64,000 nt of DNA from contig NZ_MVOI01000003.1 of assembly GCF_002283555.1 (NCBI RefSeq), positions 1,414,798 to 1,478,797 on the forward strand, in the 5' to 3' direction. This DNA is from Rubrivirga sp. SAORIC476. GTDB taxonomy: Bacteria > Bacteroidota > Rhodothermia > Rhodothermales > Rubricoccaceae. Positions within the stretch are counted from its first letter, which is position 1, and each line of letters starts with the position of its first letter. The position numbers were made by a program, and so were the translations under genes. Positions 10,373-57,063 of this stretch are shown one piece after another. The notes below the pieces were generated by a model. It saw nothing but the letters and a program-made list of their open reading frames with translations, was not told where the DNA came from and did not search any database.

Positions 10373-11374
10373 ATGCCCGATTCCAAGACGACGGCCGCCG
10401 TGACGGCGGTGGGGACCTACCTCCCCCCGGATCGCCTCACCAACGCCGACCTCGAGAAGCTCGTCGACACCAACGACGAGTGGATCCGGACGCGGACGGG
10501 CATCGAGGAGCGCCGCATCCTCAAGGACAAGACCAAGGCGACCTCGTTCATGGCGTCCGAGGCGGCCAGGATGTGCCTCGCCAAGGCCGGCGTCGACGCG
10601 TCCGAGGTGGACTGCATCCTGGTCGCGACCGTCACCCCCGACGTGGTCTTCCCGTCGACGGCCTGCCTCGTGCAGAACCAGATCGGCGCGACGAACGCCT
10701 GGGGCTACGACATCTCGGCGGCCTGCTCGGGCTTCCTCTACGCGCTCACGACGGGCTCGAAGATGATCGAGGCGGGCATGCACCAGAAGGTGCTCGTGAT
10801 CGGGGCGGACACGATGACGCGCATCATCGACTACACCGACCGCGCGACCTGCATCATCTTCGGCGACGGCGCCGGGGCGGTCCTGCTGGAGCCCACCACC
10901 GACGGGACGGGCTTCCAGGACAGCGTCCAGTACGTGGACGGCTCAGGCGTGGACTCGCTCTGGATGCCGGGCGGCGGCAGCCTCCACCCGGCCACCCACG
11001 AGACGGTCGACGCCCGCCTCCACTACGCCAGCCAGGACGGCAAGACGGTCTTCAAGCGCGCCGTCACCGGCATGGCCGACGCAGCGGCCGAGGTGATGGA
11101 GCGCAACGGGCTCGTCGGCGAGGACATCCGCTACCTCGTGCCGCACCAGGCCAACCTCCGCATCATCGACGCGACCGCGCGGCGGATGGGCGTCGGGCCG
11201 GACCAGGTGATGGTCAACATCGCGAAGTACGGCAACACGACCGCGGCCACCCTCCCCCTCTGCCTCGGCGACTGGGAGAACCAGCTCCGGCCGGGCGACA
11301 ACCTGATCCTGGCGGCCTTCGGCGGCGGCTTCACCTGGGGCGCGACCTGGCTCAAGTGGAGCTACGGCGCGTAG
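10373..11374 (+). CDS. fabH: Beta-ketoacyl-ACP synthase III
   Basis: A 333-residue KAS III. The thiolase-fold triad is visible: Cys118 in [10 protein letters not shown], His258 in VPHQANLRI and Asn288 in [11 protein letters not shown]. It condenses acetyl- or another short acyl-CoA with malonyl-ACP to start type II fatty acid synthesis; the sequence does not say which primer is preferred. It follows plsX closely and precedes fabD in a standard fab cluster. Confidence 0.96.
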
Positions 11375-51037: not shown

Positions 51038-51781
51038 CTACTCGATCTCGGCCTCGACGGCGTACACCGTGCGGGCGGCTTCCTGGAGTTGCTGCGGACG
51101 CGAGACGCCCCCGATGACCTTGAGCGTCCGGAGGGTGTACTCCACGAAGTCGAACCGCGACGTCGTGCTGCGGTGGCTCGGGTCCGTGAAGGTGCCGCTG
51201 GTGCAGCTCACCGTCTCGTAGCGATCGTCGACCAGGACGCCACCCCGCTGGTAGTGGCGGACCTGCATCCGGCACAGCGAGGCCTGGGGGTCCACCTCGG
51301 TCGGGTCCCACGTCGTCAGGACGCTGTTGGACTGCGGGGTGACCGAGAGGACGAGGTCGTAGGTCGGCGGCGGCGGCGGACCCGTGATCGAGACGGAGTA
51401 CGACAGCTGGCGCGTCGTCTGGGTGCCGCCGTTCTGGTACGTGAAGTCGGCCGTGAGGGTGTAGGACCCGTTGGGGACGTTCCCCGCCTGGACGAGGAGG
51501 TAGGAGCAGGGCGACGTGGCACAGTCGGCGGCGACCACAGAGGCATCGCCCGAGAGCGAGAGCGTGTTGCTGATCTCGGTGCCGCAGTCCGAGAAGTCGA
51601 ACGAGTACGCATTCTGGGTGCCGGGGTCGACGGTCTGGAGGCCGCTGAAGCGCGCACAGTCCAGCATCGCGCTGGCCTCGACGGCCGATGCCGCCGGCAC
51701 GTCGGCGACGAAGTCGTCGGCGCAGCCGGAGAAGAGGGGGGCAGCCAGCAAGAGGGCCGCGAAGAGGGCGAGGGGACGCAT
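51038..51781 (-). CDS. Lipoprotein of an unrecognised family (paralogue 1)
   Basis: 247 residues with lipobox APLFSGC (Cys20). The mature part is beta-rich with several cysteines. It shares with the protein at 51985 the blocks DCA(R/K), SNT(L/F)S(L/I)SGD, PNGS(Y/F)xLTA, ITGPPP, TYDL, a WDPxEVxP-type motif, CRMQV(R/K)H, RYETVxCxSG and DFVxYTLxT. I do not recognise the family. A GTCAGAACCGAC dyad lies 100 bp upstream of its ATG, pointing to control by the local two-component system. Probably an outer-membrane or periplasmic sensor accessory or stress lipoprotein (inference). Confidence 0.75.
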   Translation of the reverse strand: MRPLALFAALLLAAPLFSGCADDFVADVPAASAVEASAMLDCARFSGLQTVDPGTQNAYSFDFSDCGTEISNTLSLSGDASVVAADCATSPCSYLLVQAGNVPNGSYTLTADFTYQNGGTQTTRQLSYSVSITGPPPPPTYDLVLSVTPQSNSVLTTWDPTEVDPQASLCRMQVRHYQRGGVLVDDRYETVSCTSGTFTDPSHRSTTSRFDFVEYTLRTLKVIGGVSRPQQLQEAARTVYAVEAEIE

Positions 51782-51880
51782 GGGAGCGGTGGGAGTGAGT
51801 TCTCAGGTTCGCACGCCGTGCCCCGGTGTGCCTGAGCCGTCGATCCCGTTGGCATGCGGAAGAAGCGGCCGTTCGAGCCG

Positions 51881-51892
51881 GTCAGAACCGAC
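51881..51892. promoter_or_regulatory. Candidate operator (dyad GTCnGAACCGAC), site A
   Basis: GTCAGAACCGAC, symmetric as GTCnG-nn-CnGAC. It lies 100 bp upstream of the lipoprotein start at 51781; one of four such sites in 5 kb. Confidence 0.55.
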
Positions 51893-51932
51893 TACTCGTC
51901 ACAGGAAGCCGTTCTGCCGCCGATCCACACGA

Positions 51933-51965
51933 GCGCCCCCGCCGACACCGAGTCGGCGGGGGCGC
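51933..51965 (-). terminator. Very strong hairpin downstream of lipoprotein at 51985
   Basis: A 14-bp perfect GC stem (51933-51946 with 51952-51965) and a 5-nt loop, 20 bp after the minus-strand stop at 51985. Confidence 0.75.
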
Positions 51966-51984
51966 AGACGAGCGATGCGGCAGC

Positions 51985-52788
51985 CTACATCGCTGCGGGG
52001 TTGCTCTCAACGGCGAACACGCCCCCTGAGGCCGACTGAAGCAAGTCGATCGACTGGCTGGGGCTCTGGCCCGCCACCTCGTACGTCTGGAGCGTGTACG
52101 TCACGAAGTCGACCTGCGAGGACGTACTCTGATGGCCCAGATCCACGAAGGCGCCACTCGCGCAGTTCACCGTCTCGTAGCGGTTGTCGACGGTGGACCC
52201 GTCTAGCCGTAGGGTGTGCTTGACCTGCATGCGGCAGAAGTTGGCTGTCGGCTCCACCTCAGCCGGGTCCCAGGCCACGTCGACGCGGTCGGCCAACGCA
52301 GTCGCGTCGAGCGCGAGATCGTAGGTCTCCGTCGGCGGCGGCCCCGTGATGGCGACCGTCTTGGTGAGCGAACGGCAGGTCGAGTCGTCGACGAGGCCAT
52401 AGCAGAAGGCCGCGGTAAGGACGAAGGAGCCGTTCGGCGTGGAATCGGCCGCCGCGCCGATGACTTCCTCGGCTCCTGGCGACCCGGCGAAGATCCCGGT
52501 GATGGTGCCGTCCCCCGAGATCGAGAAGGTGTTGCTGAGGAACGGGCCACACGCCGACAGATCCAGCATGTACTTGTGGCTTGCCCCTGGCTCGACGGGG
52601 GACTGGCCCTCGATCTTGGCACAGTCGAGAGCCCGCGCCCCAGCGCTCGGCGGGTCGTGCGGGTTCGGCGGGTCCTCCCCGGCATGGGCCAGGGCGGCGT
52701 CGGCCCCGTCGGTCACGAGGCCGTCGGCGCAGCCGGAGACGAGAGGCGCGGCCAGCAGGAGGGCCACGAAGAGAGTGAAGAAGCGCAT
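51985..52788 (-). CDS. Lipoprotein of an unrecognised family (paralogue 2)
   Basis: 267 residues, lipobox APLVSGC (Cys20), paralogue of the protein at 51038, with the same ordered motifs and cysteines (DCAK, SNTFSISGDG, FCRMQVKH, RYETVNCASG). It differs by an Asp/Pro-rich insert (EDPPNPHDPPSAG) after the lipidated cysteine. It is divergent from the histidine kinase at 52955; the 166-bp shared gap carries operator site B 103 bp upstream of this start. It has its own strong terminator. Confidence 0.75.
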   Translation of the reverse strand: MRFFTLFVALLLAAPLVSGCADGLVTDGADAALAHAGEDPPNPHDPPSAGARALDCAKIEGQSPVEPGASHKYMLDLSACGPFLSNTFSISGDGTITGIFAGSPGAEEVIGAAADSTPNGSFVLTAAFCYGLVDDSTCRSLTKTVAITGPPPTETYDLALDATALADRVDVAWDPAEVEPTANFCRMQVKHTLRLDGSTVDNRYETVNCASGAFVDLGHQSTSSQVDFVTYTLQTYEVAGQSPSQSIDLLQSASGGVFAVESNPAAM

Positions 52789-52890
52789 CGGGTGGTGAGG
52801 ATGTCAGCCCCCATGGTCGCCCGGCCCTGCCGCGCTTCGCGTCCCCCGCACCGACCGTCCCCGGCCACCTCAGTGACCCATTTCGGGGGG

Positions 52891-52902
52891 GTCCGAACCG
52901 AC
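52891..52902. promoter_or_regulatory. Candidate operator (dyad GTCnGAACCGAC), site B
   Basis: GTCCGAACCGAC in the divergent gap between the lipoprotein (start 52788) and the histidine kinase (start 52955). It ends 24 bp upstream of a -7-like element, a plausible activator position. Confidence 0.6.
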
Positions 52903-52926
52903 TCCCGCGCTGGCCGACTCTGCCGA

Positions 52927-52934
52927 TACCTTCG
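52927..52934 (+). promoter_or_regulatory. Candidate -7 element of kinase-regulator operon
   Basis: TACCTTCG, one base from TAnnTTTG, 20 bp before the kinase ATG. No -33 TTG is present at the normal spacing, as expected for an activator-dependent promoter. Confidence 0.4.
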
Positions 52935-52954
52935 GCTCCTGCCCTCCCGTATCG

Positions 52955-54166
52955 ATGCCCCTGCTCGCTCTCCTGCTCGCCGCGGCCCTCCAGACGGGAT
53001 CTGTGGAGGCCGCCTCCGACTCGGCGCTCGCGCGCGGGGCCGTGCTCTCGGCCACCGAGGCGGCCGAGCGTGACGGGCCGTTCGCGGACATCGGGGCCTT
53101 CTTCGAATGGGTCGACCGCAACCAGCCCATGAGCGGGAGCCGCCTCGTCAACCCGCACACCGACCCCACCGGCGAGCGCGGGATCTACTACGTGCTCGAC
53201 CGCGACTCGACAGTATGGATCCAGGGCCCCGACGGCCAGACCCTCCGCCTCGATGCGTACCTACCCTACAAGATGGGCCGCACGATCAACGAGGAGTTCA
53301 AGTACAGTGAGAGTCGTCCCAAGGGGGTCGGGTGGGGGGTCGAGGCGGGCGAGTTTCTGATCTACATCAACAGCGGCCTCCCGCAGCGCCTCGCGCTCGC
53401 GCTCTTGGTCCTCGTGCCGCTGCTGGTGCTCGCCGTCATCTACGGCCTCTGGCGACGGCTCCGGCTGGCGACCGAGCGGGGCCTCCAACTCGCCGAGTCG
53501 CGGCGGCGCCTCGCGGACAGCCGTGAGAACGAGCGGATGCACCTCGCGCGAGACCTCCACGACGGCCCCCTCCAGGACCTCCAGGCCCTCCGGATGCGGC
53601 TCGGCGTCGTCCAGCGGGCGGTCGAGCGGGGCACCCCACTCGCCGACGCGGCGCTCGACCCCGTGCAGGCGGACCTGCTCCGCGTCGTCCACGAACTGCG
53701 CGGCGTCAGCGAGGGACTGCGCCCGCCGGTGCTGGGGCCGTTCGGGCTGGCCGCCGCGCTGCGGACGCTGGCCACGCGCGCGAGAGAGACCCACCCGGAC
53801 CTGACCATCGACCTCGACCTTCAGGCCGATGGGACACGCCTCAGCGAAGCGGCACGCATCGCGCTCTACCGCGTCGTCCAGGAATCGATCAACAATGCCG
53901 CCGTGCACGGCCGGGCGCACCGCGTCACGGTGACCTACCGCGAGCACAACGGCGTCCGCCTCGTCGTCGAGGACGACGGCACCGGCTTCACGATGCCCGA
54001 CGCCGTGTTCGACCTCGAACGCGAGGGCCACCTCGGCGTGGCGGGCATGAGCGAGCGCGCCGAGGCGATCGGCGGCACCTTCGCCGTCGACACCCGCCCG
54101 GGCGCAGGCACCCGCGTCCTCGTCACCGCTCCACCTTCCGTCTTCTCCACCCCGATCCCCGCATGA
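52955..54166 (+). CDS. Sensor histidine kinase, NarL-partner type, with unrecognised extracytoplasmic domain
   Basis: 403 residues: signal-like N-terminus (1-20), an extracytoplasmic domain of about 120 residues (ADIGAFFEWVDRNQPMSG ... YYVLDRDSTVWIQGPDG ... EFKYSESRPKGVGWG), one TM helix (146-166), a HisKA_3 dimerisation domain with His202 in LARDLHDGPLQDLQAL, and a HATPase domain (VVQESINNAAVHG, DDGTGF, GHLGVAGMSERAEAIGG). The sensor domain recurs in the kinase at 55567. The response regulator starts within its stop codon (ATGA), so it is the cognate partner. Operator site B and the -7 element lie upstream. Confidence 0.92.
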   Translation: MPLLALLLAAALQTGSVEAASDSALARGAVLSATEAAERDGPFADIGAFFEWVDRNQPMSGSRLVNPHTDPTGERGIYYVLDRDSTVWIQGPDGQTLRLDAYLPYKMGRTINEEFKYSESRPKGVGWGVEAGEFLIYINSGLPQRLALALLVLVPLLVLAVIYGLWRRLRLATERGLQLAESRRRLADSRENERMHLARDLHDGPLQDLQALRMRLGVVQRAVERGTPLADAALDPVQADLLRVVHELRGVSEGLRPPVLGPFGLAAALRTLATRARETHPDLTIDLDLQADGTRLSEAARIALYRVVQESINNAAVHGRAHRVTVTYREHNGVRLVVEDDGTGFTMPDAVFDLEREGHLGVAGMSERAEAIGGTFAVDTRPGAGTRVLVTAPPSVFSTPIPA

Positions 54167-54771
54167 TCCGCATCCTCGTCGCCGACGACCACCCCCTCTG
54201 GCGCCGCGGCGTCTGCGATCTGCTCGACGGCGAGCCTGACCTGTCGGTCGTCGGGCAGGCCGGCGACGGCGCCGAGGCGCTGGACCTCATCCGTACCGTC
54301 CCGGCCGACGTGGCCCTGCTCGACATGGAGATGCCGCGCATGAGCGGGGTCGAGGTCACGCGCACCGTCCGCGCCGAGGGGCTCACGATGCGGCTGCTGG
54401 CGCTCTCGGCGTACGACGAGCCAGAGTACGTCTCGGGCTTGATGGACGCCGGGGCCGACGGCTACATCACCAAGGAGCGCCCCCCCGAGATGTTGCTCGA
54501 GGCCGTCCGCGCCGTGGCCGACGGGCAGGGGCGGTGGTTCGTGCGGGCGGTCCCGGCCAGCGACCACACGAGCCACCTGTCGGAGCGCGAGCGCGAGGTG
54601 CTGGCCCTGCTCGCCGAGGGGCGCCCCAACCGCGGCATCGCCGAGGCGCTGTTCATCTCCGAGAACACCGTCCGGAACCACCTCAGCAGCCTGTATGCGA
54701 AGATCGACGTGCAGGGCGCCCGCGAGGCGGTCGCGTGGGCGTGGCGCAACGGCGTGATCCGAGCGGAGTAG
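54163..54771 (+). CDS. NarL/LuxR-family response regulator
   Basis: 202 residues. Receiver domain with Asp8/Asp9 (VADDHPLW), phospho-acceptor Asp54 (LLDMEMPRMSG) and Lys (YITKERPPE), then a LuxR-type helix-turn-helix (about 140-200: LSEREREVLALLAEGRPNRGIAEALFISENTVRNHLSSLYAKI). It overlaps the kinase gene by 4 bp. It is the only DNA-binding regulator in the island and the natural candidate to bind the four GTCnGAACCGAC dyads, including one starting at its own last base. Confidence 0.93.
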   Translation: MIRILVADDHPLWRRGVCDLLDGEPDLSVVGQAGDGAEALDLIRTVPADVALLDMEMPRMSGVEVTRTVRAEGLTMRLLALSAYDEPEYVSGLMDAGADGYITKERPPEMLLEAVRAVADGQGRWFVRAVPASDHTSHLSEREREVLALLAEGRPNRGIAEALFISENTVRNHLSSLYAKIDVQGAREAVAWAWRNGVIRAE

Positions 54772-54782
54772 TCCGAACCGAC
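54771..54782. promoter_or_regulatory. Candidate operator (dyad GTCnGAACCGAC), site C
   Basis: GTCCGAACCGAC beginning at the last base of the response-regulator stop codon, 80 bp upstream of the lipoprotein gene at 54862. Identical to site B. Confidence 0.55.
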
Positions 54783-54861
54783 CAGTTCCAAACGGCCGGT
54801 CTGTGCCGTTGCCGACGGGACAAGTCGGCCCGAACCTCAGGGCACAGTCTCCATCTCTCCC

Positions 54862-55536
54862 ATGACACGCTCCCTCTCCTCTGCCCTCGCTGGATCCCTC
54901 GGGGTCGCCCTGCTCCTGGGCGCCTGCGACACGGCCGGGCCGTCTGCGTCCGCCGCGTTCGGTCCCTTCCCACCGGCCGACGTGTCGCTTCACCAGACGA
55001 CCATCGTCCCTCTCGACAAGAGTGGCACCGACCTGACGTACGCGTTCGCCGACGCCGACTCGACCTGGGACGGAACGTTCTCCGTGACGACCTACGACGA
55101 CGACGGCGCTCCCATCGTCACGTTCGAGCAGGACGCGTGGGTGGAGGCCAGCGGCGTCACCCGGTACGGGATCGACTTCTCCTGGAACCTCGCGATCGCG
55201 GAGAACGCCGAGATCTACTACCTAGACATCCTGGGCGACGACGTGCAGGTGAGGAGCATCATCACCGACGCCGAAGGGGATGACGGCGACGGCGACGGCG
55301 GCGACCCTGGCCACTCATTCCACACCGACCCCGAGGGCGAGATCCGCATCGACTACCCGCGGGAGGGGGACCCGAACGCCCCCAACGGAGGGATTCGGAA
55401 CGGCCTCGGCGAGCCGCTCGTCGGCATCACGGACGTGGCCGTCCGGTTCAAGGAGGGCACCGACGTCCCCGTCGCCGTGGAAGCGCGCTTCCGCTACCCC
55501 CACGGGGTGACCTTCACGTACACGGTCGAGAACTAG
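54862..55536 (+). CDS. Hypothetical lipoprotein in two-component island
   Basis: Not recognised. 224 residues, lipobox LLLGAC (Cys22). The mature part appears beta-rich (LTYAFADADSTWDGTFSVTTYDDDG, TRYGIDFSWNLAIAENAEIYYLDI) with an acidic Gly/Asp/His loop (DDGDGDGGDPGHSFHTD) that could bind a metal. It is not an obvious paralogue of the two lipoproteins at 51-53 kb. Placed between the two kinase genes and preceded by operator site C, it is probably part of the same regulon. Confidence 0.75.
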   Translation: MTRSLSSALAGSLGVALLLGACDTAGPSASAAFGPFPPADVSLHQTTIVPLDKSGTDLTYAFADADSTWDGTFSVTTYDDDGAPIVTFEQDAWVEASGVTRYGIDFSWNLAIAENAEIYYLDILGDDVQVRSIITDAEGDDGDGDGGDPGHSFHTDPEGEIRIDYPREGDPNAPNGGIRNGLGEPLVGITDVAVRFKEGTDVPVAVEARFRYPHGVTFTYTVEN

Positions 55537-55566
55537 CGCCGGCCCACCGCAGACTCGCGCCAACGG

Positions 55567-56820
55567 TCAGGAGGGGTCGGCCCCGAGAGGAACGGACATC
55601 TCGATGGTCGTCCGGCCGGGCACGCTCTCGATGCGCAGCGTACCGCCGAGCGCCTCGGCGCGCTCGGCCATCCCGGCGAGCCCGAGGTGCCCCTCTCGCT
55701 CGAAGGCGTGGAGATCGGCCGGGACCGCGAACCCCGCCCCGTCGTCAGCCACCGTGAGTCGGGCCCGTCGCTCGCCGTCCAGCGCATACTCGATGCGGAC
55801 CTGCTGCGCCTGGCCATGCTCGATGGCGTTGTTGACAGCTTCCTGCAGGACGCGGTAGAACGCGAGTCGCACCGGGTCTGGCAGGTCGCGCCCCTCGCTC
55901 TCCAGATGGTGATGGACCGCGAGCGCGGGATGGGAGGTGCGCAGACGGTCTACGAGGACGCGCACTGCGGGCGCGAGCCCGAAGGAGCCCAGCACCGGAG
56001 GCCGAAGCCCTTCCGAGATCTCGCGGAGTTCAGCGCCGACCCGCAGGAGTTCACCCTGAACCCGCTCGACGGCGGCCGACAGACTGTCTGCAGCTTCCCG
56101 GTCCGGCGCGCTCGGCGACCGACCGCGTCGCTTCCGCTCAGCGACAGCGAGTTGCATGCGGAGCGCCTGGATGTCCTGGAGGGGGCCGTCGTGCAGGTCG
56201 CGAGCGAGTCGGATCCGCTCTTCTTCGCGGCTCTCCACCAGCCGGCGCCTCGACGTTACCAGTCGTCGCTCCTGCTCGAGCGAGTGCTCCAAAGCTCTCC
56301 GCAGGCGGTAGACCCCCATGCCCCCACCCAGGAGCAGGAGAAGAAGCACGACGAGAACGCCGACCACAGGCGCACTCTGGGTCACGTCGGGATAGAGGCG
56401 CCCCGACTCGTACCCGTACCCCACGCCTTCGGTGTACATGTCTGCATACCCGAGCCTCCCCGCGCCGGCCCTGCCGAGGCTCCACAACAAGTAGGCGCCC
56501 GTGTGGAAGGGGTCGCCCTGCGCGGGCTGCACCCACACCGTACTGTCTGCTCCCAGGACCCACGACGCCCCCTCGTCACGAGGGCGTCTGTGCGGCGAGG
56601 ACCCGGCCGCGCGCTGCCTGGGCTCCAACTCCCAGAACCAGTCGAACAGAGCCTCTTGGCCAGCAAACCGCCCGTATTCGCGCAGGTACGGTTGGACGAG
56701 GGACTCCAACGGCACGACCGCGGAGTCTGGCGGCGCGGCCAGAGAGTCGGGCGACTGGGCAGACGCAGAGGGGAGGAGTCCAACGACCACGACTGTCGCG
56801 AACCGTAACAAATGCCTCAT
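55567..56820 (-). CDS. Second sensor histidine kinase with the same extracytoplasmic domain
   Basis: 417 residues: signal peptide (1-21, LLPSASA), extracytoplasmic domain (about 45-140: GRFAGQEALFDWFWELEPRQR ... ASWVLGADSTVWVQ ... GYADMYTEGVGYGYESG), a TM helix (about 150-172), HisKA_3 with His210 in LARDLHDGPLQDIQAL, and HATPase (VLQEAVNNAIEHG, DDGAGF). It parallels the kinase at 52955 along its whole length, including the ADSTVWVQ / RDSTVWIQ core. No response regulator is adjacent, so it may share the regulator at 54163. Operator site D lies 87 bp upstream. Confidence 0.9.
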   Translation of the reverse strand: MRHLLRFATVVVVGLLPSASAQSPDSLAAPPDSAVVPLESLVQPYLREYGRFAGQEALFDWFWELEPRQRAAGSSPHRRPRDEGASWVLGADSTVWVQPAQGDPFHTGAYLLWSLGRAGAGRLGYADMYTEGVGYGYESGRLYPDVTQSAPVVGVLVVLLLLLLGGGMGVYRLRRALEHSLEQERRLVTSRRRLVESREEERIRLARDLHDGPLQDIQALRMQLAVAERKRRGRSPSAPDREAADSLSAAVERVQGELLRVGAELREISEGLRPPVLGSFGLAPAVRVLVDRLRTSHPALAVHHHLESEGRDLPDPVRLAFYRVLQEAVNNAIEHGQAQQVRIEYALDGERRARLTVADDGAGFAVPADLHAFEREGHLGLAGMAERAEALGGTLRIESVPGRTTIEMSVPLGADPS

Positions 56821-56906
56821 CGAAAAAGATCAGCCTGGAGGGATGACGTGGCACAACCTAGCCGCGCCACCCACCTCCCCGGGGGCCGATACCGCTCGAT
56901 GTAGCA

Positions 56907-56918
56907 GTCGAAACCGAC
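56907..56918. promoter_or_regulatory. Candidate operator (dyad GTCnGAACCGAC), site D
   Basis: GTCGAAACCGAC, a one-arm-mismatch version of the dyad, upstream of the kinase at 56820. A -7-like TAGGTTGT is found between it and the gene (minus strand, 56860-56853). Confidence 0.5.
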
Positions 56919-57063
56919 TATTAAACGAGACCACAGGACTACGTCCTACCCCTCATCCGGTCTCAGGCCACCGACCTCCTTTCCCTCGGCTTCATCGCCT
57001 GTGCACGGTCGCAGCGACGGACGCGGCCGCCCGACGCCAGCACGGTGAGCAAGAAGCCGCTGC

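Follow-up and report, generated by a model that had tools for sequence, protein, structure and literature searches.

Introduction

Escherichia coli NarL and NarP are response regulators in which a receiver domain is followed by a LuxR-type helix-turn-helix, and they act from sites located a few tens of base pairs (bp) upstream of promoters. Each arm of a NarL site has the sequence TACYYMT. In LiaRS-like systems, autoregulated operons of a HisKA_3 kinase and a NarL-class regulator also control neighbouring envelope genes. In one description of NarL (PMC7419079), the sites are often two inverted 7-base elements with 2 bp between them, and the protein is able to activate from positions -44.5, -67.5 and -77.5. 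Here, we describe a 64,000-nucleotide stretch of DNA from Rubrivirga sp. SAORIC476 (order Rhodothermales; contig NZ_MVOI01000003.1, positions 1,414,798 to 1,478,797), called the window throughout, in which an island of six genes encoding two sensor kinases, one response regulator and three lipoproteins carries four copies of a short inverted repeat. These repeats are likely to be operators of the NarL/FixJ-type regulator encoded within the island itself.

The island resembles the NarL/NarP system in the architecture of its regulator, in the placement of its sites and in the use of two inverted 7-base elements around a 2-bp centre (7-2-7; PMC7419079). It differs in its arms, which read TAGTnnn in the form recovered across the order and nrGTCnr in the window, and in a set of sites that looks local rather than global. 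With LiaRS it shares the pairing of a HisKA_3 kinase with a NarL-type regulator and the occurrence of sites before its own operon and before genes for envelope proteins. Unlike LiaRS, no transporter or LiaF-like gene was recognised among the six island genes, the proposed targets are lipoproteins without a Pfam or NCBIfam family, and kinase 1 scores only 56 of the 450 bits required by the LiaS model. Related units of the same order (G003 C10, G029 C36, G017 C2, G039 C70, G007 C201, G003 C1:4032228 and others, in our own labels for genomes, contigs and loci) possess a homologous regulator of 44-65% identity and, as in the window, a 7-2-7-like site upstream either of the kinase or of the gene that follows the regulator. 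The arm sequences of these units vary (TAGTAC, TGGTGC, TCGTCGG), and among the units read the combination of four sites, two kinases and three lipoproteins was encountered only in the window.

The mechanism is already known; the operator sequence, the module and the lipoprotein family appear to be undescribed, and a literature search conducted mostly at title level found neither such an operator nor such a module described for this order. For a regulator family of this order, the repeats supply a candidate operator that can be tested, and their analysis brings to light an unnamed lipoprotein family. If arm sequences track regulators, the paralogous modules of a single genome would constitute a natural set for studying the insulation of two-component systems.

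Inverted repeats precede every gene unit of the island

A sequence-only reading of the window had reported four 12-mers sharing an imperfect dyad, GTCnG-nn-CnGAC. All four 12-mers are present where that reading had placed them, but the identity of the copies was slightly overstated: GTCnGAACCGAC is matched exactly by three of them, and the 12-mer at 56907 (GTCGAAACCGAC) is one mismatch off. The near-palindrome is real and was drawn too narrowly. With two further bases on each side, the 12-bp core becomes a 16-bp inverted repeat of two 7-bp arms and a 2-bp centre, the 7-2-7 geometry of NarL-type operators. The consensus of the four 16-mers is nrGTCnr-AA-CCGACym, and the inner GT...AC is invariant. 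They are listed here with their fit to TAGT-N8-ACTA, the form recovered from the order as a whole (see below).

Site 1, 51879..51894: CGGTCAG-AA-CCGACTA; 5' of lipoprotein 1; arms agree at 4/7 positions; 2 mismatches to TAGT-N8-ACTA.
Site 2, 52889..52904: GGGTCCG-AA-CCGACTC; divergent gap between lipoprotein 2 and kinase 1; arms agree at 5/7; 3 mismatches, the weakest of the four.
Site 3, 54769..54784: TAGTCCG-AA-CCGACCA; overlaps the regulator stop codon, 77 bp upstream of lipoprotein 3; arms agree at 5/7; 1 mismatch.
Site 4, 56905..56920: CAGTCGA-AA-CCGACTA; 5' of kinase 2; arms agree at 5/7; 1 mismatch.

The four sites serve five start codons, and every gene unit of the island is covered. 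The spacing between core end and start codon is 99 bp for lipoprotein 1, 102 bp for lipoprotein 2, 52 bp for kinase 1, 79 bp for lipoprotein 3 and 86 bp for kinase 2, which bears out the earlier placement of the sites upstream of the two paralogous lipoproteins, the kinase-regulator operon, the third lipoprotein and the second kinase. Such distances would allow NarL-like activating positions.

Clustering and rarity of the repeats in the genome

A genome scan with one mismatch had been proposed as a check on the repeats, and at that stringency it returned many matches, 147 for GTCnGAACCGAC against 35 for the reversed pattern. Within the 64-kb window the same search found 4 matches against a mean of 3.3 in 100 shuffles, 41 of which reached 4. 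The exact pattern is clustered: it occurs five times in the 4.48-Mb genome, and three of these occurrences lie within one 2.9-kb stretch, the island. The unusual aspect is this clustering of sites and not the abundance of the one-mismatch pattern. The related pattern GTCnGWWCCGAC is found at seven distinct places in the window genome, of which three belong to the island, three fall inside coding sequence and one precedes a carB-like gene; the small number of places outside the island indicates that the sites mark a local set.

Two null models were applied to the best 12-mer common to the four promoter gaps. Its score was reached in none of 1000 Markov shuffles. When four real gaps at a time were drawn from 102 gaps of the same genome, 1 of 1000 draws reached it; gaps shorter than their target were kept unaltered here, a slight bias toward the observed value. 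A palindrome-only statistic on the window gaps alone was unconvincing (GTCGG-N2-CCGAC, log10 P of -4.2 before correction), so that the case rests on the shared word, the relatives and the order-wide count.

Genes and proteins of the island

The six island genes, and a hairpin that lies outside the set of repeats, are as follows; lipoboxes were assigned by eye.

Lipoprotein 1, 51038..51781, minus strand: lipobox LFSGC; paralogue of lipoprotein 2.
Hairpin, 51933..51965, minus strand: 14-bp arms, directly 3' of lipoprotein 2; from its position, probably the terminator of that gene.
Lipoprotein 2, 51985..52788, minus strand: lipobox LVSGC.
Kinase 1, 52955..54166, plus strand: HisKA_3 and HATPase_c; a signal/extracytoplasmic part and a transmembrane segment, both by eye.
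Response regulator, 54163..54771, plus strand: receiver followed by a GerE/LuxR helix-turn-helix; proposed binder of the four sites.
Lipoprotein 3, 54862..55536, plus strand: lipobox LLGAC; possible remote member of a regulator-adjacent lipoprotein family.
Kinase 2, 55567..56820, minus strand: HisKA_3 and HATPase_c; sister of kinase 1.

The regulator matches Response_reg with 87.6 bits and GerE with 66.2 bits, which places it among the NarL/FixJ-type proteins, and it possesses receiver residues D54 and K104 (counted by eye). It scores below the NCBIfam equivalog cut-offs for NarL (139.9 of 250 bits) and NarP (144.3 of 343 bits). As the sequence-only reading had maintained, it is the sole DNA-binding protein recognised by Pfam or NCBIfam among the six genes. 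Both kinases exceed the cut-offs for HisKA_3 and HATPase_c, identifying them as HisKA_3 sensor kinases, and they are sisters in the kinase tree (support 96/92). As a whole, the 4.5-Mb window genome (G000) yields 54 regulator matches and 24 kinase matches at E<=0.001, a large predicted set of NarL-type two-component systems; several of the regulator paralogues are 46-63% identical to the island protein and have a similar recognition helix.

Lipoproteins 1 and 2 are 49% identical. None of the three lipoproteins matched a Pfam or NCBIfam family. When the 114 genomes of the order were searched, lipoprotein 2 found nothing beyond lipoprotein 1 and lipoprotein 3 found only itself. The predicted structures were too poor for a structure search, with a mean predicted local distance difference test score (pLDDT) of 44 for lipoprotein 3 and 55 for lipoproteins 1 and 2.

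Related kinase-regulator units in the order

The window regulator falls into a clade with those of G029 C36, G000 C3:2009466 and G003 C10 (support 91/94). The recognition helix begins with SENTVR[NS]H in all four members, and similarly in most other aligned regulators. On contig C10 of G003, a sister genome, the regulator-kinase pair is flanked by two perfect GTCGGWWCCGAC palindromes, one (GTCGGTTCCGAC) 3' of the regulator gene and 103 bp upstream of a gene for a small secreted peptide of 40 residues, the other (GTCGGTACCGAC) 121 bp before the kinase. GTCnGWWCCGAC occurs at 12 places in the 5.0-Mb G003 genome: eight in coding sequence, the two flanking this unit, and two in other gaps, one of them 59 bp before a receiver-kinase hybrid gene. 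The ten places away from the C10 unit were treated as background. The pattern was also read at some of its places in the other seven family genomes, which played no part in the argument. G029 C36 carries TAGT-N8-ACTA.

Across the class, a G013 regulator query at E<=1e-40 matched 39 of 244 genomes, all from the same order. A regulator scan of the genome collection gave, among the best 80 of 132 loci, one near relative (46%) in a Rhodothermia metagenome-assembled genome, the sequence of which proved to be a contig already in the analysed set; the other relatives among these 80 reached at most 44% and were mostly actinobacterial or unrelated.

A 7-2-7 matrix built only from the eight window arms was run over the gaps of 25 other kinase/regulator loci, and five scored at p<=0.03: L079 (TGGTCCG-AT-CGGACTA, p=0.003), L072, L070, L078 and L083. 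These matches are placed before the kinase or after the regulator. The best locus matches, including TGGTCCGATCGGACTA, TGGTGCGGATGGACTA, TAGTACGGATGTACTA, TAGTACATACGCACTA, TAGTACGTGTGTACTA, TAGTGCATCTGCACTA and TAGTATTGAACTACTA, suggested the form TAGT-N8-ACTA. In approximately 292 kb surrounding 63 regulator matches, TAGT and ACTA were found 9 times at a spacer of 8 (8 times once a duplicate contig is removed, some contigs being present twice) versus 0-2 times at every other spacer from 3 to 14. A comparison dyad, TTGA-N8-TCAA, also gave 9 matches in this wider count, with two pairs stemming from a duplicate contig and no common position.

All tetramer dyads at spacers of 0-14 were then counted in the flanks 5' of the kinase and 3' of the regulator at 54 regulator matches (52 loci, a few contigs being present twice). 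TAGT-N8-ACTA ranked first, at 8 of the 52 loci and in 8 different genomes, against 0.26 expected (log10 P of -9.4); the runner-up had a log10 P of -6.2, and TAGT at any other spacer was found at no more than one locus. In an enumeration over all gaps near regulators TAGT-N8-ACTA was not among the first 25, we think because our home-made gene caller, used in place of a proper annotation, leaves coding sequence as gap on contigs of lower G+C content. Across 8 entire genomes (about 34 Mb) the dyad occurs at 29 places, 5 of them beside a regulator unit. We read 21 of the 24 remaining places; 8 lie in coding sequence and 13 in gaps, beside mixed genes that form no coherent regulon.

When near matches are included, sites lie 50-119 bp before kinases (window, L078, L079, L072, L194, L087) and 77-208 bp before the lipoprotein that follows the regulator (window, L082, L191, L194, L071, L080, L189), and in L050 and L200 one site common to divergent genes lies 273-298 bp from the kinase. 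Exact or one-mismatch sites precede 10/21 family lipoproteins, 5/23 kinases and 7/231 other genes; these counts overlap the discovery flanks and are a description more than an independent test. Among rows with a family lipoprotein as neighbour, 13 of 23 have a gap site with at most one mismatch within 3 kb, versus 11 of 45 rows without one (p=0.015), in a list in which some contigs appear twice. The site family accompanies some members of the regulator family but not all.

Two sequences of other form were noted beside these units. An exact GACTA-N7-TAGTC precedes the small peptide gene in both clade relatives (L069:7202-7218, L077:8146-8162), and in L077 it overlaps a TAGT-N8-ACTA site, suggesting that the half-sites may take more than one arrangement. 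In a paralogous unit (L070:7830-7857 and 10686-10713), a pair of long palindromes, GC-rich and with CTCGGNNCCGAG as their core, is found behind the regulator and ahead of the kinase; they may be terminators or operators.

Candidate operators and alternative explanations

We favour the view that the four repeats are operators of the regulator at 54163-54771, and consider it probable. On an extracytoplasmic signal, one or both membrane kinases would phosphorylate the regulator, a dimer of which would then occupy each 16-bp inverted repeat, 50-100 bp before the start codons. Bound regulator would change, and more likely raise, transcription of the kinase-regulator operon, kinase 2 and the three lipoproteins, which are presumed to play a part in the module. 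Both the positive sign of control and the cross-talk of kinase 2 are guesses. The island is probably self-contained and autoregulated because all of its units are covered, the sites are rare elsewhere and the same geometry recurs in related kinase-regulator units. The proposal of a closed regulon made on first reading thus still appears the best, with the amendment that similar sites belong to other units of the order as well.

Several observations weigh against this assignment. The arms within each window site agree at only 4-5 of 7 positions, and sites 1 and 2, with two and three mismatches, fit TAGT-N8-ACTA poorly. The G003 regulator is closer to a paralogue in the window genome than to the window regulator and so counts as a relative within the clade rather than a strict orthologue; nor are the window kinases united with the G003 kinase in the kinase tree. 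Conservation in related genomes, invoked at the outset as a test, was found in part: the G003 C10 palindromes and the 8/52 loci speak for it, but two of the three nearest relatives lack the window core, the gaps flanking G000 C3:2009466 and G029 C36 containing no GTCGGNNCCGAC at up to one mismatch. Other dyads also fell below 1e-5 in the tetramer count, so that its P values are optimistic. Exact sites were found in 5/23 rows with a family lipoprotein versus 3/45 without (p=0.11), and most units have none. Finally, when the fixed pattern was tested on 11 additional units of more distant relationship, no exact site was found, and one-mismatch sites there were no commoner than at other spacings.

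The strongest alternative is that the sites are operators of a regulator encoded elsewhere, such as another NarL-type protein, and that the island is its target without being autoregulated. The abundance of paralogues with a similar recognition helix makes cross-binding plausible. Sites of the same geometry adjoin kinase-regulator units in several genomes and are rare elsewhere, a pattern of local autoregulation, and we regard control from elsewhere as rather unlikely.

It is improbable that the repeats are functionless leftovers of duplication in an island that grew by copying, as its two kinases and two lipoproteins might suggest. The identity of lipoproteins 1 and 2 and the sister relationship of the kinases would agree with such growth, and the similarity between the upstream regions of lipoproteins 1 and 3 continues beyond the core (0/200 shuffles). 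In the true paralogue pairs, by contrast, the upstream sequence on either side of the core has diverged: lipoproteins 1 and 2 share about 10 bases beside it, in an aligned segment of just 22 bases, and the best alignment of the two kinase regions bypasses the site. The remaining upstream pairs gave no alignment outside the core, a search with lipoprotein 2 missed lipoprotein 3 at E<=0.001, and similar sites recur in other genomes. Similarly improbable is a chance clustering of sequence favoured by a genome of high G+C content, for which the 147 one-mismatch matches and the absence of over-representation in the window as a whole may be cited; it is opposed by both null models and by recurrence beside relatives. 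That the sites are terminators or another structural repeat is very improbable, for although site 3 is directly 3' of the regulator gene and the GC-rich palindromes near a paralogous unit, which have a similar core (CCTCGGNNCCGAGG), resemble terminators, imperfect arms with a 2-bp centre should, by inspection, be unable to form a stable hairpin, the starts on either side of site 2 diverge, and sites 1 and 4 are upstream of starts.

Autoregulation by the island regulator also admits a broader and tentative extension. Across the order, self-contained surface-sensing modules might each comprise a membrane kinase, a regulator of NarL type and, as a secreted product, either a lipoprotein that diverges fast or a small di-cysteine peptide, sharing a 7-2-7 operator whose drifting arms keep paralogous modules of one cell insulated; the lipoprotein or peptide may itself return the signal to the kinase.

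A regulator-adjacent lipoprotein family and other observations

A profile seeded from six lipoproteins encoded after the regulator finds further members in other genomes, many of which contain an SxH...DY motif. By row count, a family lipoprotein lies near such a regulator in 17 genomes. Lipoprotein 3 was the best window protein in every round of the profile search (E of 0.21, 0.016, 0.039 and then 6.5e-4 among 3693 open reading frames), passing the threshold of 0.001 in the fourth round only, and it contains a stretch resembling the motif. Its status as a remote relative of the family is doubtful. Lipoproteins 1 and 2 had no significant match to the profile. With a wider alignment that includes lipoprotein 3, 33 of the 114 genomes gave a match at E<=0.001, which in many of them was weak and confined to the N-terminal part.

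A second lipoprotein subfamily (L075:9910-10656, L309, L310, L312) is found beside a protein with a start like 'IPLFxxL...HRRxYVAGESIF', which we infer to be cyclic-nucleotide-binding-like. No TAGT-N8-ACTA lies in front of these lipoproteins, located beside other genes, in L309, L310, L312 or L075; L311 was not resolved by the gene caller.

Small secreted peptides with a terminal two-cysteine motif are encoded near the regulator in three units of the regulator clade (L078:7787-7909, L077:7791-8000, L069:6873-7094) and end in ICFPLIGC, ICIPFIGC and CIIIMGHIVC. They are possibly signals or peptides resembling ribosomally synthesised and post-translationally modified peptides (RiPPs). Beside the paralogous unit of the window genome, the protein at L069:5128-5580 has a weak similarity, below the cut-off, to NHLP-leader RiPP precursors and adjoins an NtrC-like AAA+ regulator. 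Lastly, similar sequences occupy the same place in two species, TAGTGCGCCAGGACTA at L276:4939 (G000 C15) and TAGTGCCTCAGTACTA at L279:4971 (G003), where an ATP-grasp-like gene (by eye) and a small open reading frame converge, and are perhaps a terminator.

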